DNA from: Thalassobaculaceae bacterium
GTDB taxonomy: Bacteria; Pseudomonadota; Alphaproteobacteria; Thalassobaculales; Thalassobaculaceae
Length of the DNA: 59,038 nt
Assembly: GCA_029212785.1 (NCBI GenBank)
Contig: JARGOG010000018.1
Coordinates: 7,560-66,597 of the forward strand
Direction: 5' to 3'
This document shows positions 627-57,812 of this stretch, piece by piece; the stretch's first letter is position 1; each line of letters begins with the position of its first letter. Below the pieces are notes generated by a model. The model did not search any database and had not been told where the DNA came from. It saw only the letters and a program-made list of their open reading frames with translations. A program made the translations under genes and the position numbers.

Positions 627-636
627 GCGACCACCT

Positions 637-1944: not shown

Positions 1945-1955
1945 GGCGGATCTCC

Positions 1956-3497
1956 TCAGGACACGGGTGGGGCGCCGCCGGCTTCGCTGCGCCGGGCGAT
2001 GAAGGCGTCCAGGGCTTCGACCACCGACGGATCGACGGGCGGCGCGGTGAAGTCGGTCAGACGCTGCTTCCAGACGCCGTTGGCGCGCTTGGAGGCGACC
2101 TCCGCGCCCGACTCCGTCCATTGGCCGAAATTGCGCCAATCCGACAGCATCGGCTCGTAGAACGCGCTCTGATAGCGGCTCATCGTGTGCTCGGCGGCGA
2201 AGAAGTGACCGCCCGGAGCCACTTCGGCGATGGCGTCGAAGCCGATCGAATCATCGTCCGCCGCCAGCGGCACCAGGGTCTCGGCGAAAATCTGCAGCAT
2301 TTCGACGTCGAGGATGAACTTCTCCATCGACGCGGTCAGCCCGCCCTCGATCCAGCCGGCCGCATGCTGCCACCAATGCGCCCCGCCCAGCAGGTTGCCC
2401 CACATCGACATCAGTGTCTCGTAGGTGCTCTGCTCGTCCGGCGCGTTGGACGCGGTGCCGACTGAGCCGCGCCACGGCACGTCGATATGCCGGGCGAGCT
2501 GGCCGGCGCCGAGCGCCGCCTTGACGAATTCCGGCGTGCCGAAAGCGGGGGAGCCGGACTTCATGTCGACATTGGAGGTGAAGGAGCCGTAGAGCACCGG
2601 CGCGCCTGGCCGGGTGATCTGCGCGAGTGTGATCCCGGCCAGCGCCTCGGCATGGGCGAGTGTCAATGCCCCGGCCATGGTGACCGGCGCCATGGCGCCG
2701 GCGAGGGTGAACGGCGTGATCAGGCTCGGCTGGCCCGCCTCGGCGAAATCCATGATGCCCTGGCACATCGGGATGTCGAGCTGGCGCGGCGAGTTCGAGT
2801 TGATGACGGTGAAGCAATACGGGTTTGCGGCGAATTCCTCGGCGGAGAGTCCGCGCGCAATGCGGATCATCTCGAAACAGTCGAGCGCCTGGGGTCGGCC
2901 GCGGGCATAGACGAAAGGCGGCTTGGTCGCCAGCGTGAGCTGGGCGCGGGTCATCGCGTAGTGGCGGATATGGGTCTCCACATCCTGCGGCTCGACATTC
3001 GGCGCGAGGATGTGGATGACGTCGAAATCCTGGGCCAGCCGGATCAGGTTGGCCGCATCCGCCATGGTGCCCGGCCGCTTGCCGCCGTCGAGGTCGGAGA
3101 TGTGTGGTGCGCCGCCGACCCCGACAAAGGCGATGTCCGGCCCGCCGAGCCCGACCGCATCCTGCGGCCCCGCACCGTGCAGGGTGATGTGCGCCGGCGC
3201 GGTGCGGATCGACTCCGCGATCAGACCGCGATCGATCCGCACCATCCAGTCGTCGTCGACGCTGGCGCCCGCCGCCTTGAGCCGGCCCCGGGCCTCATCG
3301 TTCAGAACTTTGATGCCGAGTTCTTCCAGCACGCGCAGTGCCGTGTCGTGCATCGCCGCGACCCGGTCTTCGCTGAACGCGGCTTGTGGGGCGAAGGTAT
3401 TCTTCAGGTGCCGGTAGCTGGTGACACGCTTCGGGGTTTCGCCCGGGTCTCCAGCGCTCCGCCGTCCCCGTCTGCCCCGTCTTTCCCGTTCGGTCAT
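1956..3497 (-). CDS. Trimethylamine methyltransferase family protein (MttB superfamily, non-pyrrolysine)
   Basis: A 513-residue member of the MttB superfamily. In this family, corrinoid-dependent enzymes move a methyl group from trimethylamine (pyrrolysine types) or from glycine betaine and related quaternary amines (non-pyrrolysine types) to a corrinoid protein. The frame has no internal amber codon, so this is the non-pyrrolysine class. Family features are the HLKNTF/FSED start, the VGGAPHISDLDGGKRPGT segment (about 125-145) and the TIM-barrel core. The ATG at 3497 has GAGGAGC upstream, directly after the stop of the dehydrogenase gene. No corrinoid protein or reactivase gene is visible nearby, which is odd for a methyl-transfer role. 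Substrate is unproven; betaine-like is favoured by the dimethylglycine-dehydrogenase neighbour. Confidence 0.85.
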   Translation of the reverse strand: MTERERRGRRGRRSAGDPGETPKRVTSYRHLKNTFAPQAAFSEDRVAAMHDTALRVLEELGIKVLNDEARGRLKAAGASVDDDWMVRIDRGLIAESIRTAPAHITLHGAGPQDAVGLGGPDIAFVGVGGAPHISDLDGGKRPGTMADAANLIRLAQDFDVIHILAPNVEPQDVETHIRHYAMTRAQLTLATKPPFVYARGRPQALDCFEMIRIARGLSAEEFAANPYCFTVINSNSPRQLDIPMCQGIMDFAEAGQPSLITPFTLAGAMAPVTMAGALTLAHAEALAGITLAQITRPGAPVLYGSFTSNVDMKSGSPAFGTPEFVKAALGAGQLARHIDVPWRGSVGTASNAPDEQSTYETLMSMWGNLLGGAHWWQHAAGWIEGGLTASMEKFILDVEMLQIFAETLVPLAADDDSIGFDAIAEVAPGGHFFAAEHTMSRYQSAFYEPMLSDWRNFGQWTESGAEVASKRANGVWKQRLTDFTAPPVDPSVVEALDAFIARRSEAGGAPPVS

Positions 3498-3507
3498 GGT
3501 GCGCTCC

Positions 3508-5928
3508 TCAGATCCTGAGCCGTGTGCCGGCCGGATCGTAGGGGCTGTCGGCGATGATCCGGGCCGGGCGTTTCACCCCGACCACATGGACATCCACCGC
3601 ATTGCCCTCGACCGCCACGTCGGAATTGACCAGCGCCATCGCCAAGCTCATGCCGACCGAGTGACCAAAGCCGCCGGAGGTGACGAAGCCGACCCGCTTG
3701 CCGTCGATCCAGACCGGCTCGAAGCCGCCGGCATCGGCGCCGTCCGCATCGATGCTGAGGGTCACCAGCTTCTGCGGCGGCGATCCGGTCTCCTGCTCCT
3801 TCAGCGCCGCGTCGCGGCCGATGAAATCGCCCTTGTCGAAGGCGATCCAGCGGTCCATGCCGGTCATGCCCGGTGTGTAGGCCTGAGTGAACTCGCTCGA
3901 CCACACGCCGTAGCTCTTCTCCAGGCGCATGGCGTTGGCGGCGTATCCGCCGATACTGGCGAGGCCAAGGCCGTCGCTGGCTTTGACGAGGGCGTCGCGC
4001 AGCATGCGGTGCTCCGGCGCCGGTACGTTAATCTCGTAACCGAGTTCGCCCAGTACCGAGAGGCGGCCGACCCTGGCGCGGGTCAGCCCGACATCCACGT
4101 CGCGACAGGCCATGAATCGGAAATCCTCCGGCGCCACGCTGTCGTTGACGACCAGCCGTTCCATCACCTTTCGGGCGTTCGGCCCGGAGACCAGCCATCC
4201 GACCCAGGCGTCGGAGATGTCGCGCACGGTGACGTCGGCGCCGGCGTGGCTGTCGAACCAGCGCATGTGCCATTGCCGCAGGTAGTAGGACCCCATGAGC
4301 CAGAACGTCTCGCCGTCCCAGTTGAAGACGGTGAGATCGCCCCGCATCCGACCCTTGGGCGACAGCATCGGGGCGAGGCGGGCACGGCCCACCGCCGGCA
4401 GCTTGCAGGCGAGCAGGGTGTCGAGCCATTTCGCCGCCCCCGGCCCGCTGATCTCGTATCGCGAATAGCCCGAGGTATCGAGCAGGCCGACCCCCTCGCG
4501 GGTCGCCGTGGTCTCGGCGGCGACGATATCGAACGCGTTGGAGCGCTTCAGTGTCGGTGTCTCCTGGAAATCCTCGGACGGTGCAAAGAACAGAGGCACC
4601 TCCAGACCCCAACTCACCCCGAAGCGGGCCTCGGCGGCGACATGGGCGTCATGGCTCGGCGACACCCGGAGCGGCCGGCCGGCGGGGAGCTGCTCGTTCG
4701 GATAGGCCATGACGAAGCGGCGCGAGTAGAACTGGCCCGTCCGCTGGCGCAGATACTCGCGGTTCGACGCCCATTTGCCGAAGCGGGCGATGTCCATGCC
4801 GAAGACATCGGCCTCGGGCTCGCCGTGGATCATCCATTCCGCCAGCGACTTGCCGACGCCGCCGCCCTGGCTGAACCCGGCCATGACACCGCAGGCGAGC
4901 CAATAGTTCGGCACGCCCGGAACCGGGCCGACCAGCGGATTTCCGTCCGGCGCAAAGGTGAAGGCGCCGTTGACCCATTTGCGGATGCCGGTGTTGTTCA
5001 GCACCGGATAACGCTCGAAACCCTTCTGCAGCTCCGGCGCGATCCGGTCGATATCCTCCGGGATCAGCTCGATACCGTAGTCCCAGGGAGCGCCTTCCAT
5101 GTTCCAGTGCTTCGGCGTCATCTCGTAGACGCCCATCAGCAGGCCGCCGCGCTCCTGGCGCGAATAGGTGAAGCCCTCAAGGTCGGTGAGCATGCACATC
5201 TCGCGCTCCCGGCCCTCCAGTTCCTTGATCGGCTCGGTGACGAGGTAATGGTGCTCCATCGGCGTGACCGGCAGGTCGACGCCGGCCATCAGCCCGACCT
5301 GCTTGGCCCACAGACCGGCTGCGTTGACCACATGCTCGGCGACGATGGTGCCCTGCTCGGTCACCACGTCCCAGGCGCCGTCGGCGCGCGGGATCAGTTC
5401 GATCACCCGGTTGCGCAGGATGACGTCGGCGCCCCGCTTCTTCGCCGCACCGGCATAGGCATGGGTGGTGCCGTAGGGATCCAGATGACCCTCGTGCGGA
5501 TCGTAGAGCCCGCCGATCACGTCCGACAGGTCGGCGATCGGGTTCAACTCGCGGATCTCGTCGGGGGCGAGCAGGCGGGCTTCGTCGACGCCCATGGTCT
5601 GGAAGATCGCCCAGGCGGATTTCAGCCACTCCCAGCGTTCGGGCGTCGAGGCGATGCTCACGCCGCCCGTCATGTGGACGCCGACCGCCTGGCCGCTCTC
5701 CTCCTGGATCTCCTGGTAGAGCTTGATCGTGTAGGCCTGTAGGGCGGCGATGTTCGGGTCGGCGTTCAACGGGTGGAAGCCGGCGGCGGCGTGCCAGGTC
5801 GAGCCGGCGGTGAGCTCTGCGCGCTCGATCAGCGCGATGTCGGTCCAGCCGAATTTGGACAGGTGGTAGAGCACGCTGGCGCCGACCACGCCGCCGCCGA
5901 TGATCACCGCGCGATACTGGGACTTCAT
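3508..5928 (-). CDS. Dimethylglycine/sarcosine dehydrogenase-like FAD-GcvT fusion protein
   Basis: An 806-residue fusion. Residues 1 to about 390 are an FAD-binding DAO domain (IIGGGVVGASVLYHL at about 9-23; the conserved STWHAAAGFHPL region nearby is where relatives attach FAD covalently). Residues about 420-800 are a GcvT-type aminomethyl/folate domain (GYSRYEISGPGA..., then the C-terminal barrel with SGGFGHSVGMSLAMALV). The architecture is that of dimethylglycine and sarcosine dehydrogenases, which oxidise an N-methyl group and pass formaldehyde to tetrahydrofolate. Length matches the family. The ATG at 5928 has GGGAAGG upstream. It is the first gene of the operon, and the double palindrome 48-79 bases before its start should control it. 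Which N-methylglycine it prefers is not decidable here. Confidence 0.88.
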   Translation of the reverse strand: MKSQYRAVIIGGGVVGASVLYHLSKFGWTDIALIERAELTAGSTWHAAAGFHPLNADPNIAALQAYTIKLYQEIQEESGQAVGVHMTGGVSIASTPERWEWLKSAWAIFQTMGVDEARLLAPDEIRELNPIADLSDVIGGLYDPHEGHLDPYGTTHAYAGAAKKRGADVILRNRVIELIPRADGAWDVVTEQGTIVAEHVVNAAGLWAKQVGLMAGVDLPVTPMEHHYLVTEPIKELEGREREMCMLTDLEGFTYSRQERGGLLMGVYEMTPKHWNMEGAPWDYGIELIPEDIDRIAPELQKGFERYPVLNNTGIRKWVNGAFTFAPDGNPLVGPVPGVPNYWLACGVMAGFSQGGGVGKSLAEWMIHGEPEADVFGMDIARFGKWASNREYLRQRTGQFYSRRFVMAYPNEQLPAGRPLRVSPSHDAHVAAEARFGVSWGLEVPLFFAPSEDFQETPTLKRSNAFDIVAAETTATREGVGLLDTSGYSRYEISGPGAAKWLDTLLACKLPAVGRARLAPMLSPKGRMRGDLTVFNWDGETFWLMGSYYLRQWHMRWFDSHAGADVTVRDISDAWVGWLVSGPNARKVMERLVVNDSVAPEDFRFMACRDVDVGLTRARVGRLSVLGELGYEINVPAPEHRMLRDALVKASDGLGLASIGGYAANAMRLEKSYGVWSSEFTQAYTPGMTGMDRWIAFDKGDFIGRDAALKEQETGSPPQKLVTLSIDADGADAGGFEPVWIDGKRVGFVTSGGFGHSVGMSLAMALVNSDVAVEGNAVDVHVVGVKRPARIIADSPYDPAGTRLRI

Positions 5929-5975
5929 GGCTCGCCTTCCCGGACTGGTGGCAGTTCGAAGAAGGTTAATCGCGT

Positions 5976-6007
5976 CTGGACATCAGTGTCTAGACAGAAG
6001 TGTCCAG
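5976..6007. promoter_or_regulatory. Double palindrome, likely operator of the demethylation operon
   Basis: The sequence reads CTGGACA-TCAG-TGTCTAGACA-GAAG-TGTCCAG. It holds two overlapping 16-base imperfect palindromes of the form T-R-GACA-N4-TGTC-Y-A (5977-5992 and 5991-6006) whose centres are 14 bases apart. It lies 48-79 bases before the dehydrogenase start and overlaps the last codons of glk. On the minus strand TAGACA, 17 bases, TTAACC inside and just after it could be the promoter. Paired sites fit two dimers of the TetR protein encoded at the end of the operon; that link is inferred. Confidence 0.6.
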
Positions 6008-6949
6008 GATCATGTCTGCGGATCGGCTCAGGCCGAGAAGAGCTGGTTCCGGGTGGATGATCAGGCGTGTCGGGATCGGGTCCAGATATCCGGCGAGGCG
6101 GCCCTTGGCGGTGAAGCGGCGGCGGAACCGGTCGCCGTCGAACAGAGCGCCGAGTTTCGGCACGATGCCTCCGGCGACATAGACCCCGCCGCTGGCGCCG
6201 GCCGTCAGCGCGAGATCGCCGGCGACCGTGGCGAGGAAATCGGTGAATAAGTCGATCGCTTCCCGGCACACGGGGTCCTCGGCGGCGCGCGCGGCGATCG
6301 TGGCGGCATCGAGGCGGAGCCCCGGCTTGTCTTCGACGGCGCGCAGGGCATCGTGCAGATCGGCAAGCCCGGCGCCCGACAGCGCCCGCTCGGCCGAAAC
6401 ATGGCCGTGCAGGCCACGCAGATATCCGATCATCCTCTCCTCGCGACCGCTCTGGGCAGGAAGCGTGGAATGACCGCCCTCGCCGGGGATCACCCGAATG
6501 CCGGCGGTGTTGGGGACAACCAGACCGACACCGAGGCCGGTCCCGGGCCCGAGCACGACCATCGGACCAGGACGGGGATCCCGGTGCGCACCGATCGTCC
6601 GGAAGTCGGCGTCACGCAGATGCGGCAGCGCATAGGCGACGGCGGCGAAGTCGTTGAGGACGGCGATCTGGTCGAGCCTGAACCGCGCCCGCAGATCCGC
6701 CACGGCGGTGCTCCAGGCGCGGTTGGTGAAGACGATGGTGTCCGGGTCCGGCGGCCCGGCAACGGCGAACACGGCACGATCCGGCCGGTCGTCCACGCCG
6801 ATCGGCGCGAGATAGGCTTCAATCGCCGCTTCAAGGGTGGCGAAGCGGTTACCTTCCAGCGACGCTTCCCGCCGGGTGTCCGATCCGTCGGTGAGCGCGA
6901 AGCGCAGGTTGGTGCCGCCCAGATCGGCGATCAATATTGGTCCGGTCAC
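5990..6949 (-). CDS. glk: Glucokinase
   Basis: A 319-residue hexokinase-fold sugar kinase that phosphorylates glucose with ATP, giving glucose-6-phosphate in the cytosol. The phosphate-1 motif is ADLGGTNLRFAL (about residues 7-18). AVLNDFAAVAYAL is the catalytic-aspartate region (about 98-110), LGPGTGLGVGLV follows (about 132-143), and GEGGHSTLP is the bacterial Glk signature. The adenosine motif is YVAGGIVPK near residue 270. The GTG at 6949 starts just before the first motif; the frame is open to a TTG at 7096, but that extension is low-complexity and has no family match. The 3' end runs into the operator of the neighbouring operon, so repressor binding could also touch transcription leaving this gene. 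Confidence 0.88.
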   Translation of the reverse strand: MTGPILIADLGGTNLRFALTDGSDTRREASLEGNRFATLEAAIEAYLAPIGVDDRPDRAVFAVAGPPDPDTIVFTNRAWSTAVADLRARFRLDQIAVLNDFAAVAYALPHLRDADFRTIGAHRDPRPGPMVVLGPGTGLGVGLVVPNTAGIRVIPGEGGHSTLPAQSGREERMIGYLRGLHGHVSAERALSGAGLADLHDALRAVEDKPGLRLDAATIAARAAEDPVCREAIDLFTDFLATVAGDLALTAGASGGVYVAGGIVPKLGALFDGDRFRRRFTAKGRLAGYLDPIPTRLIIHPEPALLGLSRSADMILDTSV

Positions 6950-7395
6950 GCCATTGCCCCCCGCTTCGGGTGGAAGTGGCTCGGGCGGAAGTGGCTGTCG
7001 GCGAACGGCCCCGCTTCTGCGTGTGCAATCGACATGGTTGCCCTCTCTACACGGCGTCCGGTTGTCAGCCTGGATCGAAGCCGTGCCGAATATCAAGCCG
7101 TCTGCTAATCTGGTGTCGTGTAAATGGGCACGGATTGTGCGGGTTTCGCGAAATCACTTGCATTTCCAACAACAATGCCCATGTTGCGGTGCAAGAGACG
7201 GTGCCGCGCGTGGACTTGACGGAAACCCGCAACGGCGGCGCAGTCGGATGGACTCCCTCATTTTGAAGCGGAATGGCCATCACCTCGCTCCTTCGGTCTG
7301 AAGGCGCACCATCGGCCGGCTGTTCCGCGCATGCTTGCTCACTGAAGTATTACGTCGGACGGCATGGTCCGGACGGCGAACACGAAAGACTTAAT
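6950..7395. other. Intergenic region between divergent glk and the DEAD-box helicase gene
   Basis: About 446 bases with no convincing protein gene. Short open frames on both strands lack ribosome sites. The region is less GC-rich than its neighbours around 7110-7200 and should hold both divergent promoters. A small ATG frame (7364-7399, 11 codons) ends in a TGA that overlaps the TTG start of the helicase. The long leader would suit a cold-regulated helicase mRNA, but no defined RNA element was recognised. Confidence 0.5.
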
Positions 7396-8865
7396 TTGAC
7401 CGACTTCAAGAGTCTCGGCTTAGCCGAGAACATTCTTCGAGCCGTTGCGGCCGAGGGATACGACACTCCGACCCCCATCCAAGCTAAAGCCATCCCGCCG
7501 GTCCTCGAAGGCCGAGATGTTGTCGGCATCGCCCAGACGGGCACCGGCAAGACCGCTGCCTTTGTGCTGCCGCTGCTGAGCCGACTTGCCGAACTCGGCG
7601 GCACGGCGAAGCCGAAGGGCGCCCGCATCCTGGTGCTGTCGCCGACCCGTGAGTTGGCGGCGCAGATCCATGATGCCGTGCGCGTCTACGGCAAGAACGT
7701 GCGGCCGCGCTCGACCGTGGTCGTCGGCGGCGCCAAGCCGGGACCGCAGATCCGCGCCTGCGCGCAGGGTCTCGACGTCCTGGTGGCGACGCCCGGTCGA
7801 CTGCTCGACCACATCGGGACCGGCGCGATCAAGCTGACCGATACGGCGGTCGTCGTCCTGGACGAGGCCGATCAGATGCTCGACCTCGGTTTCATGCCGG
7901 CCGTGCGCCGCATCCTGGCGATGACGCCGAAGACGCGCCAGACGGTGCTGTTCTCGGCAACCATGCCGAACCAGATCCGGGCGTTGGCCGAAGATTTCCT
8001 GGCCGATCCGGTCGAGATCGCGGTGACTCCGGCCTCAACCCCGATCGAGCGCATCAAGCAGAGTGTGATCGCGGTGCCGCGCGCCGAGAAGCGCAATGTG
8101 CTGGCTAAGATCCTGTCCGACGAGGCGGTGGGTCGTGCGATCGTCTTCTGCCGCACCAAGCGGGGCGCCGACCGTGTCGCACGCCATCTCGCCAGCGCCG
8201 GCCTCGGCAGCGAGGCGATCCATGGCGACAAGAGCCAGGGTCAGCGCGAGCGTGCGCTCGACGCCTTCAAGACCGGCAAATCCAACATCCTCGTCGCCAC
8301 CGACATCGCCGCGCGCGGCATCGACGTGGACGGGGTCACCCATGTGGTGAACTACGAGTTGCCGAACGTGCCCGAGAGCTATGTCCACCGCATCGGCCGC
8401 ACCGCGCGCGCCGGCGCCGAGGGTGTGGCGGTTTCGCTGGTCGATCCGGAGGAGCATGAGCTGCTCGCCGATATCGAACGGCTGATCGGCCGGTCGCTGA
8501 CGACCGGCGAGCCGATCGATCGGGATGCGCCGAAGCCGCGGTCGAGCACGTCGGCCAAGTCGAAGGCGAAGCGCCGTAATCGCCGCAGTGGCGGCGGATC
8601 GCGTGACGGTCGCCCGCAGCAGGCAGGTGGCGGCGAAAACCGTCCGCCCCGCGCCACCGGCGAGGGCCGCCCGCAGCAGCAGCGGGCCAGCGGCGAAGGC
8701 CGCTCGCAGCCGGCCAGCGGCGACGCCCGGCCGAAGCGCAAGGATGATCAACGCCGCGACCGGGGCGAATCCCTGGATGCCGGCGTCGCCCGGATCGCAC
8801 GGGGAAAGCCCCGCAGCGACAAACCGAGCAAGGGATTCCGCTCTCCGGCGCCAGTACGCGCCTGA
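7396..8865 (+). CDS. DEAD-box ATP-dependent RNA helicase (RhlE-like)
   Basis: A 489-residue RNA helicase for unwinding structured RNA, typically in ribosome assembly or cold adaptation. All core motifs are present: the Q motif (TPTPIQ), AQTGTGKT (Walker A, near residue 48), PTRELA, TPGR, VLDEAD, FSATMP, ARGID and HRIGRTAR. From about residue 390 the tail is a basic, Arg/Gly/Gln-rich low-complexity extension of about 100 residues, as in RhlE-type helicases, probably for RNA binding. I favour the TTG at 7396, where family similarity (TDFKSLGL) begins; the frame also opens at 7273, but that extension looks non-coding. A cold-shock protein follows after 49 bases, so the two are probably co-regulated. 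Confidence 0.9.
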   Translation: MTDFKSLGLAENILRAVAAEGYDTPTPIQAKAIPPVLEGRDVVGIAQTGTGKTAAFVLPLLSRLAELGGTAKPKGARILVLSPTRELAAQIHDAVRVYGKNVRPRSTVVVGGAKPGPQIRACAQGLDVLVATPGRLLDHIGTGAIKLTDTAVVVLDEADQMLDLGFMPAVRRILAMTPKTRQTVLFSATMPNQIRALAEDFLADPVEIAVTPASTPIERIKQSVIAVPRAEKRNVLAKILSDEAVGRAIVFCRTKRGADRVARHLASAGLGSEAIHGDKSQGQRERALDAFKTGKSNILVATDIAARGIDVDGVTHVVNYELPNVPESYVHRIGRTARAGAEGVAVSLVDPEEHELLADIERLIGRSLTTGEPIDRDAPKPRSSTSAKSKAKRRNRRSGGGSRDGRPQQAGGGENRPPRATGEGRPQQQRASGEGRSQPASGDARPKRKDDQRRDRGESLDAGVARIARGKPRSDKPSKGFRSPAPVRA

Positions 8866-18561: not shown

Positions 18562-19926
18562 TCAGGGACGCTTGGCGATGACCACGAAATCGCCGGATCG
18601 GGCCGACCATAGCGGCACGCCTGTGAACGGATCGCGTTGGGCGATCGGGAACTGCGGATCCTCCAGACGCGAGGGGCCACGCAGTGTGGCGACCACCTTG
18701 AGGCCGCGGTTGCCGAGCTGCTGGTCCAGATATCTGGGGGTGAGTACCTGGAGCGTGCGGCCGCCGAGAATGGGGAGTGTTCCTCCCGATACCGTGTCGC
18801 TCTGGCCGAGCGTCTCGCCGTTCCGCGCGACGATCATGAGGTACCCGTTCTTTGCCACCATCCGGCACAGGCTCTCGATCACTCGACCCAATTCAGGGGT
18901 GCGATCCAGACCCAGATCGCAGGTGACGCAAGTGGCGCTTTCGGCAGGTGCCGCCTCCAATTCAGCGCGATCGCCGCTCACGGCATTGAGGCCGAAGACC
19001 TCGCGGGCATACGCGGCGCTGGAGGAGTCGTCCTCAAAGCCCTGCGCGCGCATGCCTGTCGCTGCATGATGGGCCAGAGACGCTCCGGAACCGCACCCGA
19101 ACTCGTAGACGGCGGCGCCGGTCCATAACTCGCTCCGGCTCCACGCGAGGTGGGGCAGGAGTACCTGTTCGAACGCCGACAGGAAGGTCATGCCGACGCC
19201 TCCTTCATAGCCCGCCCCGGCCGGACCGCTGCCGGGGCTGTCGAGAGCGTCCGGCTCTCTGAACCGATAGGCCACGAAGGTCAGCGCGCATTTCGAGCAG
19301 CGCGCGACGGGAACACTGAGGCCTTCGCGCGCCGCCAGCATCAGCATGATCTGCAGCGTCGTTCGGGTGTCCGCCGTGGTGTTTGAGATGTCGTTGTGCA
19401 GGGCATCGACCAGCGGCTTCGGATCGAGATAGCGGGTGAGGGCGCGGCATTTCTGGTCCTGCGACGACTGGCCATCATCCGGGTGCACCAGCTTGGCCCG
19501 GCCGATCTGCGCCGCGTCTTTCTCTCCGCAGCCAGGACAGACGGCGGCCCCGGTCGCCCGTTGGGCGATCTGGTGCCGGACCTCGTCGAGCATGGCCTTC
19601 TGGGTGTCGTGAAAAACCGTCGTCTCCGATCCGGGCGCATCGGACTGCGGCTGCGGCCTGGCCCAGATCCGGTCGATCGGGATCGTCGCGCCGAGCTCGC
19701 GCAGCCGCGCGTGAACCTGGATGGACTGCTGCAGAGCGGCGAGCGGCTTCTGGATCGGGTCGGTCAGCGATAAATTCTGCCGTCCGGTCGCGACGGTGGC
19801 ACGCGCCTGGACGAGGTTTCCGTCGATCGCCTCTCGGATCGCCTGGCCGAGCACGGCGACCGCCTCGCTCGGCATGCGTTTCACGATCTCGAGGAAGATC
19901 GGTTCTGCCTTTGCCGGATCGAACAC
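18562..19926 (-). CDS. Zinc-ribbon class I SAM-dependent methyltransferase-like protein
   Basis: A 454-residue protein in three parts. Residues 1 to about 110 are helical, with TPR-like spacing. Residues about 128-220 hold two cysteine pairs, CPGC and CSKC, about 80 residues apart, a possible zinc ribbon. Residues about 245-400 are a class I methyltransferase fold with the SAM loop VYEFGCGSGASLAHHA (about 270-285), then an acidic residue after strand 2 (FEDDSS) and the strand-4 region ATCVTCDLGLD. It probably methylates a sugar, protein or other small substrate; the acceptor is unknown. The start has GGAGCG upstream (GAAGGAGCGCCCCGTGTTC: GTG at 19926 in MFDPAKAEP). It stands alone, convergent with the orphan gene and divergent from aspS. 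Confidence 0.65.
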   Translation of the reverse strand: MFDPAKAEPIFLEIVKRMPSEAVAVLGQAIREAIDGNLVQARATVATGRQNLSLTDPIQKPLAALQQSIQVHARLRELGATIPIDRIWARPQPQSDAPGSETTVFHDTQKAMLDEVRHQIAQRATGAAVCPGCGEKDAAQIGRAKLVHPDDGQSSQDQKCRALTRYLDPKPLVDALHNDISNTTADTRTTLQIMLMLAAREGLSVPVARCSKCALTFVAYRFREPDALDSPGSGPAGAGYEGGVGMTFLSAFEQVLLPHLAWSRSELWTGAAVYEFGCGSGASLAHHAATGMRAQGFEDDSSSAAYAREVFGLNAVSGDRAELEAAPAESATCVTCDLGLDRTPELGRVIESLCRMVAKNGYLMIVARNGETLGQSDTVSGGTLPILGGRTLQVLTPRYLDQQLGNRGLKVVATLRGPSRLEDPQFPIAQRDPFTGVPLWSARSGDFVVIAKRP

Positions 19927-43386: not shown

Positions 43387-44208
43387 TCAGCCGTGGCCTA
43401 TGCGGAAGTCGTTCCGACCGCAGACATCCGTGCCGCGCAGCAGCCACAGCGGTCGGGTGGTGAAATCGACCAGGTTGCCCTTGGCCTGAAGGTCGCGCCC
43501 GATCTCCCGGTCGAAATGCGAAGTGGTCGGCATGTAGCGGCAGACATAGCCGGCGCGCCGCTTGTCGGACACGTTCGGCTCGGAGCCGTGCACCAGATAA
43601 ACGTCGTGTAGCGAGACCTGACCGGCCTTGAGCACGAAGTCGACGGCCGCGGCCTCGTCGTATTCTTCCGGCGACAGCACCTGGTTCAACGCCAGCGCGT
43701 CGCTGTCGTCCTGGGCGTGGGCGCGCAGCCGCTGCTGCTTGTGCGAGCCGGGAATGACCCGCAGACATCCGTTCTCCGGCGTGGCGTCGTCCATGGCGAT
43801 CCAGGCGGAGCAGGTCGCGAGTGGTCGGATCGGCCAGTACTCACCGTCCTGATGCCAGGGCACGCGCTTGCCGGTGCCAGGCGGCTTGCCGAAGACGGTG
43901 GTGCCCCACAGGGCGATGTCGGAGCCGATCAATTGTCCGACCATGTCCAGAATCTCGGGGATGCGCGCGTAGTCGAGCCATACGCCGGAACCGTTGAGCC
44001 CCTGCACCCCGCCGGACGGCACATGCGGGCAGATCATGTTGTCGGAGCCGATGTCGGGGTTGGCGGCCTTCAGGGCCTCGAAATCGGATCGCATCCGCTC
44101 CAGCACCGCCGGCGGCAGGCGCCAGTTCGGAATGACATAGCCATGGTCATGGTAATGGGCGATCTCGGCATCGGACAGAAGATGCGAGGTCTCGGACTGT
44201 ACGTTCAT
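43387..44208 (-). CDS. Phytanoyl-CoA dioxygenase family protein
   Basis: A 273-residue Fe(II)/2-oxoglutarate-dependent oxygenase. The iron triad is HQD (in VPWHQDGEYWPI) and the distal His (in LHDVYLVHGSEPNVSDKRRAGYVCRY), with Arg in the same region for 2-oxoglutarate. PHVPSGGVQGLNGSGVWLD and GCLRVIPGSHKQQ are typical. The ATG at 44208 has GAGGAGG upstream. It is the first gene of a pair with the aldolase. The substrate is unknown; in marine bacteria these enzymes hydroxylate many small molecules, including ectoine. Confidence 0.86.
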   Translation of the reverse strand: MNVQSETSHLLSDAEIAHYHDHGYVIPNWRLPPAVLERMRSDFEALKAANPDIGSDNMICPHVPSGGVQGLNGSGVWLDYARIPEILDMVGQLIGSDIALWGTTVFGKPPGTGKRVPWHQDGEYWPIRPLATCSAWIAMDDATPENGCLRVIPGSHKQQRLRAHAQDDSDALALNQVLSPEEYDEAAAVDFVLKAGQVSLHDVYLVHGSEPNVSDKRRAGYVCRYMPTTSHFDREIGRDLQAKGNLVDFTTRPLWLLRGTDVCGRNDFRIGHG

Positions 44209-44304
44209 GATGGCGCCTCCTCTTTTTTTCCCCATGCTAGGCCGACTACCTCGCCGGGTGAAGAGGAGGACGTCGCCTCTGTTATCGGGCGCGCGCGATT
44301 GTCT

Positions 44305-46278
44305 TCACGGCTTGATCGGCATCAGCGGCTCGATTTCCTCGGGAATGGCGTAGAGCGTCGCCTCGGCGAACTGGCCGCTATAGTGGTGGAAGTAGAACCG
44401 GTAGCCGGTGCTTTCCGTCATCATGCGGTGCGGGATGTCGAAGAACTGTTGGATGGTGTGATAGATCGAGATCTCGATCTGCGGGCGGTGGGTCCGCATG
44501 ACTTCGATGACCTGATCGAGCAGAAAGCCCTCGCCGCCCTCAATGTCGAGCTTGATGTGATCGATACGGTCCAGCTTCTGCTCGGCGATCAGGGTGTCGA
44601 GCCGCTTCGAGGGAAGCACGGTCATCTGGTGTTCGGGACGTTTCGAGAGACGCGTATCCTCCCAGTGGCCGCCGGTCTGCATCCGGATCTCGCCGTCGAC
44701 GTCGCTCATTGCGAAGCGGTGGACATGAACCGCGCAGTCCGTCGCCTCGATCCAGGCCCGCGCCGGTTCGCCGAGCCGGTCATGGCCGTCGGGGTCGATG
44801 TTGTGCAGCGCGCCGCCGGGCGAGACGAGGGCCAGATAGGCGGGGATCTCGAACCCTTCGGCCACCCCCATGCTGAGGATCACGTCACCGGGCCGGTAGA
44901 CGGCGTAGTCGAAATACTGGGCGCGATGTCCCGCCTCGGTGAAGAACCGGCGCAGGAAGGTTGGCCGGTCGGCCGCCATCGTCTCCAGGTATCCCTCCCG
45001 GCTGGCCGCGTCGCCCATGCGCGCGGCGATCTCCCGACCGAGGCCCTCATGCTCCGCGATGTAGGCGCGCTCGCTGCCGTCGCCGGACCAGAAAGTGATG
45101 TTCTGGCCGGTGCGCAGGCCGAAGGTCCGGGCCCGCTCGAGGCTCGGCCGGCCGTCCACATCCAGAATGGCCGGCAGCACCGTCCACCAGATATGCGGAT
45201 GTCCCCACAGACAAGGCAAGTACCAGGCGCCCGCCTCGTCGCACGGTACCAGCGATAGAATGCGTGCGCCGTCGGCCGGCGCGTCCGTGGACAGGATCGT
45301 CGCCCGCGGATTGTAATGGCGCAGCACCCCTTCGGCGCGTTCGACCTGATCGGCGGGGCCGCGCAGGCGCCACACGCCGTCATCCGGCAGTTTTGGGTGG
45401 AGCAGAACGCGGGTGCCGAAGATCCGCGGCTTGAAATCGGTATCGAGGGTGAATGGCGCCAGGCCTTCGATCTCGGCCGCGAATGTTTCGAGCGCCACGC
45501 GGCTCTTGCGGGAGGCGCGGCCCTTGCCGGCGGCGGCGCTATGCAGGCGAGCCCAGTGGCCGACGGTCTTCAGCGCCTCCAGGTCGCCGGTGCGCCGGAA
45601 GGCGCCCTCCAGGGCCGGTCTCGCGGTGCCGAGATCGCCCTCCAGGAGCACCCAGCGCCGAAGGCTGTTTCGCAGCAGGGGGGAGACGGCGGCATCGTAG
45701 ATGACGTCGTCGAGCAGAACGCCGGCGAGTGCGCGGTGAGCGCCGGCGAGGTCGGGGCGCAGAACGGCCGCCCGGCGCGCCGGTCCTGTGGCGCTGGCCC
45801 TGTCGACATTGCTGTCGCGGTACAGGCTGACCGACAGCCGGATCGACGCGCCGGGGCGGTTGGGATCCAGCACCATCACCCGTCGCAGGCATCGCCGTTC
45901 TGCGGCCGGATCGTCGGTTTCGGCGCGGGCGGCCGCCTTCAGCAGCCAGAACTCGGGTCGGGCAGGGAACAGCCGGCAGATTCGGTCCAGGGCGATTGAC
46001 CGGCGGGGCGAAGCCGCGGCGGCGTTGAGCAGCCGAGCGGTGACGTCGGCGTTGTTCTCGACCAGGGTCCGGCCGACCGCACCGGCGCAGGACGCGGCGG
46101 CTGAGAACCAGGCGAGGGCGGGTCCCAGCGCATCATGCGAGATCTGCGGGCGTCGGGCCTTCTGCAGTCGCACCGACAGTCGCAGCAGCTCGAGCGCGTC
46201 GCTTGGTGCCTGAAGGACGGCCGCGATGCTGTCGCGCATCTCGGGGCCGGACTCTCGAAGGTGTGTCGGCGACGGCAT
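44305..46278 (-). CDS. FkbM-type methyltransferase with uncharacterised N-terminal half (copy 1)
   Basis: A 657-residue protein. The C-terminal third (about 455-640) is an FkbM-type SAM methyltransferase: VILSMGVAEGFEIPAYLAL (SAM loop), HNIDPDG, HIKLDIEGGEGFLLDQVIEVM (FkbM hallmark, near residue 570), and ISIYHTIQQFFDIP. Residues about 280-420 hold a conserved block shared with its neighbour (GTRVLLHPKLPDDGVW, WYLPCLWGHPHIWWTVLPAILD, GRPSLE). Residues 1-280 are helical and variable, TPR-like. FkbM enzymes O-methylate sugars or polyketides. The ATG at 46278 has AGAGGT upstream. It lies 74 bases behind its paralogue on the same strand. The acceptor is unknown; a role in surface polysaccharide is a guess. 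Confidence 0.8.
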   Translation of the reverse strand: MPSPTHLRESGPEMRDSIAAVLQAPSDALELLRLSVRLQKARRPQISHDALGPALAWFSAAASCAGAVGRTLVENNADVTARLLNAAAASPRRSIALDRICRLFPARPEFWLLKAAARAETDDPAAERRCLRRVMVLDPNRPGASIRLSVSLYRDSNVDRASATGPARRAAVLRPDLAGAHRALAGVLLDDVIYDAAVSPLLRNSLRRWVLLEGDLGTARPALEGAFRRTGDLEALKTVGHWARLHSAAAGKGRASRKSRVALETFAAEIEGLAPFTLDTDFKPRIFGTRVLLHPKLPDDGVWRLRGPADQVERAEGVLRHYNPRATILSTDAPADGARILSLVPCDEAGAWYLPCLWGHPHIWWTVLPAILDVDGRPSLERARTFGLRTGQNITFWSGDGSERAYIAEHEGLGREIAARMGDAASREGYLETMAADRPTFLRRFFTEAGHRAQYFDYAVYRPGDVILSMGVAEGFEIPAYLALVSPGGALHNIDPDGHDRLGEPARAWIEATDCAVHVHRFAMSDVDGEIRMQTGGHWEDTRLSKRPEHQMTVLPSKRLDTLIAEQKLDRIDHIKLDIEGGEGFLLDQVIEVMRTHRPQIEISIYHTIQQFFDIPHRMMTESTGYRFYFHHYSGQFAEATLYAIPEEIEPLMPIKP

Positions 46279-46352
46279 GGTGACCTCTTGGCGGCGCGGC
46301 AGCGACCGTCATCACTAGAGAGCGTCTCCGCGATTGTCGAGCTTCGGACGCC

Positions 46353-48311
46353 TCAGGGTTTGATCGGCAGCAGAGGCTCGATCTCCTCGGGAATTGCGTA
46401 CAGGGTGCCTTCGCCGAAATGCCCACAATAGTGGTGGAAGAAGAACCGATACCCTTTGGCTTCCCGCATCATCCTGTCCGGGATCTCGAAGAACTGCTCG
46501 ATGGTGTGATAGATCGAGATCTCGATCTGCGGGCGATGGCTGTGCATCACCGCGATGAGCTGATCGAGCAGAAAACCCTCGCCACCCTCGATGTCGAGCT
46601 TGATGTGATCGATCCGGTCGATCCGCTCTTCGGCGATGAAGGAATCCAGTCGCTTGGACGGTAATGTCTTGATCTGGCCAAGCTGACGTTTGGACACCCG
46701 CGCGTCCTCCCAGCAGCCGCCGGTCTCCATCTCGACGTCGCCGTCGACGTCGCTCAATGCCAGTTCGTGGAAATGGATCTGGCAGGAGGTTCCCTCGATC
46801 CATGCCCGAGCGGGCTCGCCGAGTGTCGAATGCCCCTCCGGGTCGATATTGTGCAGCACGCCGGACGGCGCGATCAGCGCAAGATAGGCCGGTACCTCGA
46901 AGCCCTCGGCGACGCCGAGATTCAGGATCACATCGCCCGGCCGGTAGACCGCGTAGTCGAAGTATTGAAGGCGATGGGCGGTCTCGGTGAAGAACCGCCT
47001 GATATAGGTTGGACGGTCCGCCGACAGGGTCTGAAGATAGCTTTCCCGGCTCGCCGCGTCGGACATCCGCTCGGCGATCGACGATCCGAGCGACCTGTGG
47101 GCGTCGATATAGGCCCGCTCGTGGCCCTTGGCGTACCAGAAGGTGACGAACTGCCGCGTCCGGACGCTATAGTTCAGGACCTGATCGAGGCTCGGGCGGC
47201 CATTCGCATCCAGCACGGCGGGCATCACCGACCACCAGACATGCCAGTGCCCCCACAAGCAGGGCAGGTACCAGCAGTCCGGAGCGTCGCTTGGCACCAA
47301 AGACAGCACGCGCGCCTCTTCCGCGCCGTCATCCGCCGGGCGCAGGATCGTAGCATCGGGGTTTGCGTAGCTGAGAACCCTAAAGGCCCGGTCGACATGC
47401 TCGTCCGGACCGTGAAGGACCCAAGGTCCTGCATCCGGAAGCCGGGGGTGTAGCAGAACGCGTGTTCCGAAGACCCGCGCTTCGAAATCGACGTCGATCG
47501 TGTAGGGGGCGAGGCTCCTGATCTCGTCGTCGAATCTGTCGATGGCGGCCCGTGATCCGCGCGCTGGACCGTCGTTTCCAGGTTGGGCGAGGAGAATATC
47601 GAACCAGTCGGAGACGGCGCGCATGCCATGCCAGTTACCGATCCGGCGGAAGGCGACCTTCACTTCCTTTGCCCACCGTTCTATCTGGGGATCTGTCAGG
47701 ATCCATCGCTTCAGCTTGTTGGCAAGTCGTTGGGATGCCTGCTTGTCGACGCTCAATTCGGAAAGATCCAGGCCGATCGATCTTCGATACGTATCTGTGC
47801 CCAGCGGGTCGAGAATGATGGCGCGATCGAAAAGGGCTGCGGTATCCATCTTATCAGTTGAACCGAGCTTCACTTGATTGTGGGCGTACCCCGACCATCT
47901 CCGGGCTCCACCACAATCCAGGATCAGAGCGCGGATCAAGCAGGTCGCCTCTTCGGTGTCATTGTCCTTTCGCCGCCAGATCCCTTCGAGGTCCCAGAAT
48001 GTCGCCGACGTCGGCGCGGCAACGCAGAGTCGACGCAAGGCCGTCGACGTGATCGCATCGGTGTCACAAGCTGCGAACAACCGGCTGATCAACCCGCTGT
48101 TCACGTCGAGAACCCGCGACGTCTGCGCGCCCATTTGCGGAGCCGCGACGGTGAACCAGGTGACGAGTTTTGCGAGGGTTTCCCGGCGCTTCACCTGATG
48201 GAGAGCGACGGCGGTCCGCAACAGCAAGAGCGGATCGGACGGGCTTCCCATCAACGTTATCAGGGTTCGCAGAAGGTCTTTGGGGTCTATGAGGGGAGCT
48301 TCCCGCGCCAC
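46353..48311 (-). CDS. FkbM-type methyltransferase with uncharacterised N-terminal half (copy 2)
   Basis: A 652-residue paralogue of the gene downstream. The C-terminal part is almost the same in motif order (VILNLGVAEGFEVPAYLAL, HIKLDIEGGEGFLLDQLIAVM, EISIYHTIEQFFEIP, ending GTLYAIPEEIEPLLPIKP). The middle block GTRVLLHPRLPDAGPW...WYLPCLWGHWHVWWSVMPAVLD is also shared. The N-terminal 250 residues have diverged. I chose GTG at 48311, which has GGAG 7 bases upstream; a TTG at 48353 and an ATG at 48251 are alternatives. It is divergent from lepA. It probably arose by tandem duplication. Its N-terminal part (about 120-300) resembles the helical repeat of copy 1. Confidence 0.78.
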   Translation of the reverse strand: MAREAPLIDPKDLLRTLITLMGSPSDPLLLLRTAVALHQVKRRETLAKLVTWFTVAAPQMGAQTSRVLDVNSGLISRLFAACDTDAITSTALRRLCVAAPTSATFWDLEGIWRRKDNDTEEATCLIRALILDCGGARRWSGYAHNQVKLGSTDKMDTAALFDRAIILDPLGTDTYRRSIGLDLSELSVDKQASQRLANKLKRWILTDPQIERWAKEVKVAFRRIGNWHGMRAVSDWFDILLAQPGNDGPARGSRAAIDRFDDEIRSLAPYTIDVDFEARVFGTRVLLHPRLPDAGPWVLHGPDEHVDRAFRVLSYANPDATILRPADDGAEEARVLSLVPSDAPDCWYLPCLWGHWHVWWSVMPAVLDANGRPSLDQVLNYSVRTRQFVTFWYAKGHERAYIDAHRSLGSSIAERMSDAASRESYLQTLSADRPTYIRRFFTETAHRLQYFDYAVYRPGDVILNLGVAEGFEVPAYLALIAPSGVLHNIDPEGHSTLGEPARAWIEGTSCQIHFHELALSDVDGDVEMETGGCWEDARVSKRQLGQIKTLPSKRLDSFIAEERIDRIDHIKLDIEGGEGFLLDQLIAVMHSHRPQIEISIYHTIEQFFEIPDRMMREAKGYRFFFHHYCGHFGEGTLYAIPEEIEPLLPIKP

Positions 48312-48430
48312 CTGCGATCTCCATGTTCGCTCGGACAATGATGGCCTATACAACTTTCTGGTATCCGTCGATGGTGCGAATGCTTCGACCTACTACCCAA
48401 CCCGCGCGATTTCGGGCATAACCCGACGCC

Positions 48431-50233
48431 ATGACGAGTGACCTTTCACATATCCGAAATTTCGCGATCATCGCCCATATCGACCACGGCAAGTCGACGC
48501 TTGCCGACCGGCTGATTCAGATGTGCGGTGGCCTCACCGATCGTGAGATGAAGCAGCAGGTTCTCGACTCGATGGATATCGAGCGCGAACGCGGCATCAC
48601 GATCAAGGCGCAGACCGTCCGGCTGATCTATGACGCCAAGGACGGTCGACGCTACACCCTCAACCTGATCGACACGCCGGGTCATGTTGACTTCGCCTAT
48701 GAGGTCAGCCGCTCTCTGGCGGCCTGCGAGGGATCGATCCTCGTGGTCGATGCCGCCCAGGGCGTGGAGGCGCAGACGCTGGCGAACGTCTACCAGGCGA
48801 TCGAGGTCAATCACGAGATCATTCCGGTCCTGAACAAGGTCGACCTGCCGGCGGCCGAGCCGGAGCGGGTGAAGGAACAGATCGAGGACGTGATCGGTCT
48901 CGACGCGTCCAACGCGATCATGATCTCGGCCAAGACCGGTCTTGGCGTCGACGAACTGCTGGAAGCGATCATCGAGCGCCTGCCGCCGCCGAAGGGCGAC
49001 CGGGAGGCGCCGCTGAAAGCCATGCTGGTCGACAGCTGGTACGACAGCTATCTCGGCGTGACCTGTCTGGTGCGTGTCCATGACGGCGCCCTGAAGAAGG
49101 GCCAGCGGATCAAGATGATGCAGGCCGGGGCCTTGCATCTGGTCGAGCGGGTCGGTGTGCTGACGCCCAAGGGGCTTGCCGTCGACGAACTCGGCCCCGG
49201 CGAGGTTGGCTTCATCAACGCCTCGATCAAGACCGTGGCCGATACCAATGTCGGCGACACCATCACCGAGGAAAAGCGGCCGACCGCCAAGGCGCTGCCC
49301 GGCTTCAAGCCGAGCGTGCCGGTGGTGTTCTGCGGCATGTATCCGGTCGACGCGGCCGATTTCGAGGACCTGCGCGACAGCTTGGAGAAGCTGCGGCTGA
49401 ACGACGCCAGCTTCCAGTTCGAGGCGGAGACCTCCGCCGCGTTGGGCTTCGGCTTCCGGTGCGGATTCCTCGGGCTGCTGCACCTGGAGATCATTCAGGA
49501 GCGGCTGGAGCGCGAGTTCGACCTCGACCTGATCACCACCGCGCCAAGCGTGATCTACAAGATCCACAAGACCGACCGCACGATGATCGAACTGCACAAC
49601 CCGGCCGACATGCCGGAGGTGATGAAGATCGATCACATTGAGGAGCCGTGGATCAAGGCGACGATCTTCGTCCCGGACGAGTATCTCGGCCCGATCCTGG
49701 CGCTGTGCACCGATCGGCGTGGCGAGCAGATCGAGCTGACCTATGCCGGCAATCGGGCGATGGTGGTCTACCGCCTGCCGCTGAACGAGGTGGTGTTCGA
49801 CTTCTATGACCGCCTGAAATCGATCAGCCGCGGCTATGCCAGTTTCGACTATCAGATGGACGGCTATGCCGAGAGCGATCTGGTGAAGCTGTCGATCATG
49901 GTGAATGCCGAGCCGGTGGACGCGCTGTCGATGATCGTGCACCGCGGCCAGGCGGACCCGCGTGGCCGGGCGATGTGCGCTCGGCTGAAGGAACTGATCC
50001 CACGGCAGCTCTTCAAGATCGCCATCCAGGCGGCGATCGGCGGCAAGGTGATCGCCCGCGAGACCGTCAGCGCGATGCGCAAGGACGTGACCGCGAAGTG
50101 CTACGGCGGTGACATCACCCGTAAGAAGAAGCTTTTGGAGAAGCAGAAGGAAGGCAAGAAGAAGATGCGGCAGTTCGGCCAGGTCGAAATCCCGCAATCC
50201 GCCTTCATCGCCGCCCTGAAGATGGACGCCTGA
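48431..50233 (+). CDS. lepA: Elongation factor 4 (back-translocating GTPase)
   Basis: A 600-residue translational GTPase. It has G1 AHIDHGKST (about 15-23), G2 with RGITIK, G3 DTPGHVDF (about 79-86) and G4 NKVDLP. The lepA-specific C-terminal domain is about 485-600. It acts on the ribosome in translation quality or initiation steps. The start [23 protein letters not shown] is standard. Unlike in many genomes there is no lepB directly behind; a palindrome follows, then the iron permease in the opposite direction. Confidence 0.97.
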
Positions 50234-56375: not shown

Positions 56376-57812
56376 TCAGGCAGCGACTTCTCGAAAGGAG
56401 CCGCCAAAGCTCTCTGTGGTGTAACGGTGAATGGTGAGGCCGGGCGACCAGTGGTCCATGCTCAGCCCCGACTTGTTCTTCAGCCGCCGCACGAAATCCT
56501 CCGCCTTCGGGATCCCCGACCACACACTGGGCAGGAAAATGCCCCGATGGTCGCGGCCGTCGATCCGGTCGCTCATGATCAGTCCGTCGATGTCCGGTCG
56601 GGTCTGGCGCACCAGATCGCCCTCATCGGCGAAGCTCATCGGCCGCGGCGTCGACAGCACGGAAACCGACACCTCCATCCGCTCCGCCTCTTCGGGCGTG
56701 AGTTGGGCGAAGCGGCGGTCGGCGAAGGCGGCCTTGAAGGCGTTGTCGGCGACGTCGGCGATCAGGGGGCGGTGGGCGATGACCGAGCCGATGCAGCCGC
56801 GCAGGTTGCCGTCCAGGGTCAGGGTGACGAAGGCGGCGCGCTGGGCCGACAGGGACGGCGACAGGCCGCTGCCGATGCCGACGCTGGGGGCGCGGCCGTG
56901 CTGCAGGCCGAAGGTCACGCCGAAGCAAGCGGCCTCGACCAGGCGGCGGCGGTCGTCATCGCCGATGCGGGCGGATTCCGCGTATTCGAGGCCGAAGGCG
57001 CCGTAGCCGACCACGCGCTCCCGGCCGCCGACCATGTCGCCGGAGTTGCGAACGTCCAGCGCGGTCGCCCGCAGGTCGCGCTTGCGGGCCTGGTCGAGCA
57101 CGCCGGCCAGGGCGCGGTGACCGCAGGCCCCCTGGCCGTCGATCCGATCGCCGCGCAGCAGCTCGATGCTGGCCGCGGTCGCGCCGTCCAGCTTGCGGGC
57201 GGTGTCGTAGTCGTGGAAATGCGACAGGTCGGAGGAGACGACGATCAGCGTCTCCGGACCGCCCCAGAGCGCCTCGACGACCTGCGAGACCAGGGCGGGC
57301 GGCGCATCGCCGACCAGCAGCGGCACGATGACGGCATTGTCGAACACCCGCTGGATGAAGGGCAGGTGGACCTCCAGGCTGTGCTCCTGGACGAAGGCAC
57401 TGTCCTCGACCGTCACGCCGGGGATGTGCAGCACCGTGCGCAGGGCGGCCCAGTCCACCGGCACGGTGCCGAGCGGCGTGGCCCAGGCATCGGCACTGGT
57501 GGTGGTGATGCCCTTGAACGCGACCCGGTGGGCCGGGCCGAGCAGGACGATGCGGGTGATGTCCTCAGAGCGGGCGCGCAGCCCAGCATAGGCGGTGCCG
57601 GCGATGTCGCCGGAGAAGCGGTAGCCCGCATGCGGTGCGACCAGAACCTTCGGCGTCACCCCACCGTCGGGCCGGGCAGCGGCGAGGCAGCGCTCCACCG
57701 TATCGGCGAGCGCATTATGCCCGTCCGGATAGAACATGCCTGCCACTTCGGGGGCGCGGACCCTGGCACCGGACCGGAAGGCGGAAGTCTGTGACGTGTC
57801 AGGTGCGGACAT
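56376..57812 (-). CDS. AmmeMemoRadiSam system: AmrB (MEMO) - AmrA (AMMECR1) fusion
   Basis: A 478-residue fusion. Residues about 20-285 are the MEMO part: APHAGYRF with H61, GPAHR with H94 and GACGH with C229 (the metal-ligand set of MEMO1), plus QEHSLEVHLPF and SSDLSHFHDY. Residues about 285-470 are AMMECR1, with LRGCIGS (near 323), the family hallmark, and FLPSVWSGIPKAEDFVRRLKNKSG. In many bacteria these two are separate. The system pairs with a radical-SAM enzyme, here divergent across a 108-base gap. The biochemical function is not established; a protein or RNA modification has been proposed. Confidence 0.92.
   Translation of the reverse strand: MSAPDTSQTSAFRSGARVRAPEVAGMFYPDGHNALADTVERCLAAARPDGGVTPKVLVAPHAGYRFSGDIAGTAYAGLRARSEDITRIVLLGPAHRVAFKGITTTSADAWATPLGTVPVDWAALRTVLHIPGVTVEDSAFVQEHSLEVHLPFIQRVFDNAVIVPLLVGDAPPALVSQVVEALWGGPETLIVVSSDLSHFHDYDTARKLDGATAASIELLRGDRIDGQGACGHRALAGVLDQARKRDLRATALDVRNSGDMVGGRERVVGYGAFGLEYAESARIGDDDRRRLVEAACFGVTFGLQHGRAPSVGIGSGLSPSLSAQRAAFVTLTLDGNLRGCIGSVIAHRPLIADVADNAFKAAFADRRFAQLTPEEAERMEVSVSVLSTPRPMSFADEGDLVRQTRPDIDGLIMSDRIDGRDHRGIFLPSVWSGIPKAEDFVRRLKNKSGLSMDHWSPGLTIHRYTTESFGGSFREVAA

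Follow-up and report, generated by a model that had tools for sequence, protein, structure and literature searches.

In the 59,038-nucleotide stretch of a Thalassobaculaceae bacterium genome analysed here (assembly GCA_029212785.1, contig JARGOG010000018.1; hereafter the window), two neighbouring genes on the reverse strand encode long paralogous proteins with a TPR-like (tetratricopeptide repeat-like) head, a middle block and an FkbM methyltransferase end. Gene A (44305-46278, -) encodes P0001, 657 amino acids from an ATG, and gene B (46353-48311, -) encodes P0002 with the same architecture, 652 amino acids from a GTG at 48311. The longer open reading frame (ORF) of gene B, 46353-48353 (-), would give 666 amino acids from a TTG at 48353, and the residue numbers of P0002 are counted from this TTG. 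The in-frame GTG at 48311 has a GGAG directly upstream by eye, and it is probably the true start, as in the coordinates of a preliminary description made from the letters of this DNA. Both ORFs were present and uninterrupted, and BLASTP showed 331 of 642 residues identical (52%), which confirmed that these are tandem paralogues of about 650 residues. The motifs quoted for their near-identical order, GTRVLLHP..LPD and WYLPCLWGH..WW, were also found in both proteins. A scan of species-representative genomes with two peptide patterns, from which records very near the window genome may be left out, gave two loci in other genera, the metagenome-assembled genome (MAG) bin.590 (L013) and Alpha proteobacterium BAL199 (L014). 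The motifs and invariant residues shared by the tandem pair are far beyond chance, and the architecture is also present in these two genomes.

The three regions could be placed in both genes. In gene A, the head (residues 1-255) is at 45514-46278 (-), the middle block with the GTRVLLHP and WYLPCLWGH motifs (residues 256-415) at 45034-45513 (-), and the lid helices with the FkbM methyltransferase (residues 416-657) at 44308-45033 (-). The corresponding regions of gene B are at 47565-48311 (-, residues 15-263), 47082-47564 (-, residues 264-424) and 46356-47081 (-, residues 425-666). Identity between P0001 and P0002 was 26% in the head, 56% in the middle block, 74% in the lid and 73% in the methyltransferase. 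The G+C content of the P0002 head was 0.59, lower than that of the P0001 head (0.73). A promoter scan gave no promoter, and one terminator-like site was found against 1.8 in shuffles.

The C-terminal end is well supported as an FkbM-family S-adenosylmethionine-dependent methyltransferase domain, with the activity predicted from profile and model, since two curated libraries placed both proteins above their cut-offs and the fold matched as well. PF05050 (Methyltransf_21, Pfam) scored 30.1 bits for P0001 and 35.2 bits for P0002 against a cut-off of 22.7, and TIGR01444 (NCBIfam) scored 43.0 and 41.4 against 37.7. It bears out the FkbM end of the preliminary description. A first AlphaFold2 model of full-length P0002 was poor outside the head (mean predicted local distance difference test score, pLDDT, 50.6), and adding seven distant FkbM fragments gave a better enzyme. 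The second model, covering residues 267-666, had a mean pLDDT of 68, and from model residue 201 onward its ten-residue blocks had 61-94; alignments A7, A8 and A9 were left out of folding because MAFFT had put motif I or the N-terminal domains in the wrong place. The top Foldseek match of the P0002 model was 2py6, an FkbM methyltransferase of Methylobacillus flagellatus, with an expectation value (E) of 6.6e-8. VIA-align gave Z 18.7 over 223 residues at 2.6 A for the P0002 enzyme and this chain, and Z 11.8 for the next chain, and the match covers the catalytic domain and the lid. Unlike the window proteins, 2PY6 is a chain of 409 residues, too short to add a head of this size, and the middle block of the window proteins differs from it in lacking the glycine-rich loop and strongly in sequence.

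The head, described earlier only as a divergent helical head, held up as such (26% identical) and can be refined to a TPR-like superhelix, which is well supported by profile and model. In P0001 it matched TPR_9 with E 0.0019 and 18.6 bits, and no Pfam TPR match was obtained for P0002 up to E 1. Because 18.6 bits is under the Pfam gathering cut-off of 35, we call the head TPR-like and not a TPR family member; the P0001 head is named so through homology with the head of gene B. A profile of the four full-length members (A1: the pair, L013 and L014) matched designed and natural TPR proteins, the best being a designed repeat protein at 1.4e-18, a value which sums many repeats, as single stretches in the three proteins shown were weak (independent E 0.002 and up). 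The P0002 head was modelled as a superhelix of antiparallel helical hairpins, in which the ten-residue blocks of residues 21-250 had pLDDT 63-84. Its best fold match with VIA-align was the TPR domain of O-GlcNAc transferase (OGT; Z 14.6, 223 residues, 4.3 A), where for helical repeats a Z under about 13 may mean little, and the Foldseek list was led by SPINDLY, OGT and designed TPR proteins.

The middle block had been noted as a shared block outside known families, and the searches agree with this: Pfam had no match for it within P0001, nor for the P0002 block searched alone, and a profile of the block against the PDB gave only chance-level matches (DbpA, E 0.099 and 0.17). Nothing in these Pfam and PDB profile searches pointed to a glycosyltransferase fold, which was rejected. 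We consider it fairly likely that the block is a diverged form of the Rossmann-like domain which other FkbM proteins carry ahead of their catalytic domain; judged from alignment and model, this is probable rather than proven. The same claim bears on the condition under which the idea of an unfamiliar block was said to fall, a match to a known domain: such a domain is probable, while the glycosyltransferase fold offered as the example did not appear.

The evidence for this comes from position, alignment and model. In a MAFFT alignment with six distant FkbM proteins, the block coincided with their N-terminal domain but was shorter by about 16 residues between the third and fourth strand. The TPR-less FkbM proteins L006, L020 and L022, and L047 and L048, which are 24-30% identical to P0002 in the MAFFT alignment, carry a Rossmann-like N-terminal domain at the position of the middle block, followed by lid and FkbM domain; they differ in having no long TPR-like head and in that N-terminal domain being about 16 residues longer between those strands. 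When block and enzyme were aligned together by hhalign, the alignment ran from the start of that N-terminal domain over 351 columns (E 6e-48, the enzyme contributing most), and with the block alone the register was the same with weak scores (probability 1.5%, E 0.033; 5.1%, E 0.0076). The P0002 models show a strand at 310-314, a helix at 317-330 and strands at 335-337 and 348-351, so that a strand-helix-strand start before the lid is predicted with moderate confidence (model residues 41-80 have blocks of pLDDT 67-87, and 81-90 a block of 57). In the shuffle test with a model of six domains, only 4 of 2004 controls reached the real score for P0002, 4 of 2004 for L013 and none of 2004 for L014. 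A profile of nine canonical FkbM N-terminal domains matched 3nkl, the entry of a UDP-D-quinovosamine 4-dehydrogenase, at 1.7e-8, as well as Rex repressors; it weakly matched residues 52-103 of 2py6 (E 0.065), and one of five canonical domains scanned passed the Pfam cut-off of PglD_N.

Several results count against the Rossmann-like assignment. In most of the middle block pLDDT stays below 60, in much of it below 50, and the ten-residue stretch that contains strand 348-351 has 57. P0001 gave no signal with the six-domain model, where 1117 of 2004 controls scored as high, and with the model of the nine canonical domains the controls as high numbered 394 for P0002, 23 for L013, 165 for L014 and all 2004 for P0001 (of 2004 each). 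In the reverse search with a model of the four blocks, 34 to 715 of 3006 controls were as high on the six domains, and 86 to 4509 of 4509 on the nine. The six and the nine domains recognise each other weakly (9-1376 of 4509 and 7-1845 of 3006 controls), so the chain from the block to the canonical Rossmann domain has two weak links; both of two members of the six-domain group that were scanned had no Pfam match. The glycine-rich GxGxxG-type loop was found in none of the four members, which have GPADQ, GPDEH, GPAEQ and GPEEH there. Therefore we call the block only Rossmann-like and do not claim nucleotide binding.

The block also holds eight residues invariant in the four full-length members, W352, P355, C356, L357, G359, H360, H362 and W365 in P0001 numbering. 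An invariant C-x3-H-x-H with flanking tryptophans at P0001 residues 356-362 (window 45193-45213) may be a metal site, judged from sequence. On a different reading, the block would be a genuinely new small domain and no Rossmann derivative, in which this C-x3-H-x-H and tryptophan cluster might bind metal or sugar. The lack of a Pfam match and the chance-level PDB matches are consistent with it, as are the weak profile scores and the low pLDDT of much of the block, and C356, H360, H362, W352 and W365, invariant in all four, are not shared as a set by the six distant relatives. Against it stand the position, the predicted strand-helix-strand start and the modest profile similarity to FkbM N-terminal domains, and we regard it as unlikely. 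The middle block is rather unlikely to be a new fold, and what is found at the locus looks like known parts in unusual arrangement.

The preliminary description had named a new fold in many genomes as supportive, and this was rejected on distribution. Within the order, full-length relatives turned up in 3 of 36 genomes, one of them the window genome, which was the only one with them among six of its genus. Of 385 genomes in a class sample and 398 in a phylum sample, none but the window genome had the middle block, with at most ten and four candidates, respectively, scored per genome. Four other genomes in the phylum sample matched in the enzyme part (E up to 1e-15), and FkbM domain matches were present in 94 of 142 genomes of a further class sample, with 16 in the window genome. 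A search with alignment A5 gave nine distant FkbM loci. The pair had no plasmid match, two phage matches were short and covered the enzyme part only, and alignments A3 and A6 gave no viral relative; an origin from plasmid or phage was rejected. Since a tree of ten FkbM proteins did not settle the order within the four full-length members, duplication within this lineage is not proven. G001 and G005 are one-contig genomes of 1.5 Mb, whereas other genomes assigned to their genus measure 4.7-5.6 Mb, which is odd for one genus.

The pair occupies a slot at 44236-48430 between phyH (43387-44235, -) and lepA (48431-50233, +). bin.590 has one copy in the equivalent position, again flanked by lepA and phyH. 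In three genus-mates without the pair, the gap from phyH to lepA is about 155 bp (G002), about 155 bp (G003) and about 250 bp (G004), and all three keep the gene order of aldolase, phyH, lepA, a permease gene and a flavin adenine dinucleotide (FAD) oxidoreductase gene. The spacer of G004 carries a C-terminal relic, in which 9 of the 11 C-terminal residues of the window proteins precede a stop, on the expected strand and at the expected place. The best of 20,000 shuffles reached 6 matches, once, and none of 1,085 other window stretches had more than 4. In a general local alignment this spacer did not reach significance (6 of 200 shuffles scored as high or higher); only the test of the expected tail before a stop did. 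The relic suggests that an ancestor had the gene and that it was lost at least in the lineage of G004.

The G+C content per 500 bp was 0.53-0.56 in the gene of bin.590 against 0.57-0.69 in its flanks, and 0.44-0.56 against 0.59-0.73 in BAL199. In genome G007, a 105-amino-acid ORF (L041, 1486-1803, -), read as what is left of a second head copy, starts like the head and ends beside a transposase gene (DDE_Tnp_IS240), and the translation of this transposase occurs also at L014. The locus would appear to be accessory, its gene present in some relatives and missing from others, in states that range from retained or duplicated to lost or broken.

TPR heads bind proteins, and joining an N-terminal TPR or TPR-like head to a sugar-modifying enzyme is a likeness which the window proteins share with FlmG, OGT and SPINDLY. 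The TPR domain of FlmG binds flagellins, and efficient glycosylation depends on it (PMC7591256), the comparison with the window proteins being a functional analogy. They are unlike these three in that the enzyme is a methyltransferase and not a glycosyltransferase, and the window locus is not flagellar; no glycosyltransferase match was found in P0001 or P0002 up to E 1 in Pfam and NCBIfam. FkbM methyltransferases themselves are met beside flagellin glycosylation: among 307 enterobacterial strains with flagellin glycosylation islands they are present there in 67, and most GT41 enzymes in those islands (194 strains) carry AdoMet-type methyltransferase domains (PMC4875605, in part). Geobacillus flagellin glycosylation islands contain FkbM genes too, according to an excerpt of PMC5109656.

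A comparable chain is L132 (2815-5589, -) in genome G031 of the same class, where 924 residues hold TPR repeats, a GT9-like region and an FkbM methyltransferase by Pfam; the GT9-like region, at 21.6 bits, narrowly misses the cut-off of 22, and G031 is listed with 7% contamination. L132 resembles the window proteins, whose heads are TPR-like, in joining TPR repeats and an FkbM methyltransferase in a single chain, but its TPRs are canonical and a GT9-like region takes the place of the middle block. L132 adjoins genes resembling TPR-glycosyltransferases by eye. It was the one with TPRs of 13 regions read by eye (eleven with long frames among the class-sample matches listed, and two from the window genome), the Pfam scan being of L132 only; the short head of L049 is TPR-like by eye and is not seen by Pfam. 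Literature naming FkbM with TPR gave no such chain by title or abstract start, which does not show its absence from print.

The pair is a real but uncommon arrangement of known parts. Its unusual features are an FkbM enzyme with a TPR-like head, a Rossmann-like domain that has probably been worn down, and a tandem pair whose heads have diverged. By analogy, we tentatively favour that each protein is a carrier-docked sugar methyltransferase, with the two copies serving different carriers. The TPR-like head would bind a carrier, perhaps flagellin or some other cytoplasmic glycoprotein, or a different glycan carrier, and would present the carrier-bound sugar to the FkbM domain, which would O-methylate it. 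The middle block without the glycine-rich nucleotide loop would probably now be a spacer or a substrate platform. After the tandem duplication the heads may have diverged faster than the enzyme, and different carriers for the copies are suggested by heads that are 26% identical while the enzymes are 73% identical. In this view the heads would choose the carriers whose sugars the pair methylates.

Some points weaken this proposal. The scores of the head are below the Pfam TPR cut-offs, and its fast divergence could be relaxed constraint. By Pfam, no glycosyltransferase, sugar-nucleotide or flagellar family was found in the 53 window ORFs scanned, which are part of the ORFs of the window and lie in some cases on the non-coding strand. 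Linked glycan or flagellin genes, which the preliminary description had looked to, were not met among these ORFs. Its suggestion that the pair may act on a variable surface glycan or on different carrier proteins is still plausible in view of the TPR-like head and the TPR-FkbM fusion L132. The nearest window candidates, a glucokinase (5990-7096) and a Methyltransf_23 protein (18562-19926), are both more than 24 kb away. Flagellins turned up in all 9 genomes searched, whether or not these carry the pair, so flagellin co-occurrence was rejected as evidence. As phyH, although a conserved neighbour, adjoins lepA without the pair in G002, G003 and G004, it gives no functional link, and phyH was rejected as a functional partner.

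Some other coding regions were noted on the way. The Methyltransf_23 protein (18562-19926, -) is an ORF of 454 amino acids with that family only at residues 271-413 and no Pfam match in its first half (E 1e-5), and at 56376-57812 (-) a 478-amino-acid ORF is a fusion of Memo-like and AMMECR1 parts. Elsewhere in the window genome (L073, G000:C131:28000-36857), tandem TPR proteins of 639 and 652 amino acids at 3760-5679 and 5679-7637 (-) look FlmG-like by eye, and this TPR pair adjoins a flagellin gene by Pfam.

An unlikely alternative is that the substrate is lipid-linked or LPS/capsule (LPS, lipopolysaccharide) sugars, with the TPR-like head binding a partner enzyme instead of a carrier protein. 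For the distant relative L006 there is a weak RfbT family match (E 0.0042, 16.9 bits, under the cut-off of 27.9), and RfbT is reported to methylate O-antigen (PMC9929944). Against it, no LPS or capsule gene family was found by Pfam in the 53 window ORFs scanned, and otherwise there is no evidence that discriminates it from protein-bound glycan. Quite unlikely is a decaying accessory gene without a distinct second function, duplicated without specialisation and with heads drifting under relaxed constraint: the absence of the pair from three genus-mates with a relic in one, the head fragment beside the transposase gene (L041) and the 26% identity of the heads agree with it, but both window copies are intact, with block and enzyme 56% and 73% identical, which points to retained function in both.

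Extended further, the docked sugar methyltransferase which we favour would make the pair a methylation counterpart of the TPR-guided O-glycosyltransferases. It would be a small cytoplasmic family in which a rapidly evolving TPR-like head selects one particular glycoprotein and FkbM methylates the glycan that it already bears, with tandem paralogues specialised by carrier and a middle domain of changed function; taken as a whole, we hold this extension to be doubtful. To our knowledge, few FkbM domains have known substrates. FkbM domains are very common, and a docking head may be a handle for finding a substrate of one of them. If the head aims the enzyme, a late sugar modification would owe its specificity to a modular docking domain, much as glycosylation does with FlmG, and the tandem pair would offer a natural case in which to test how docking heads diverge.

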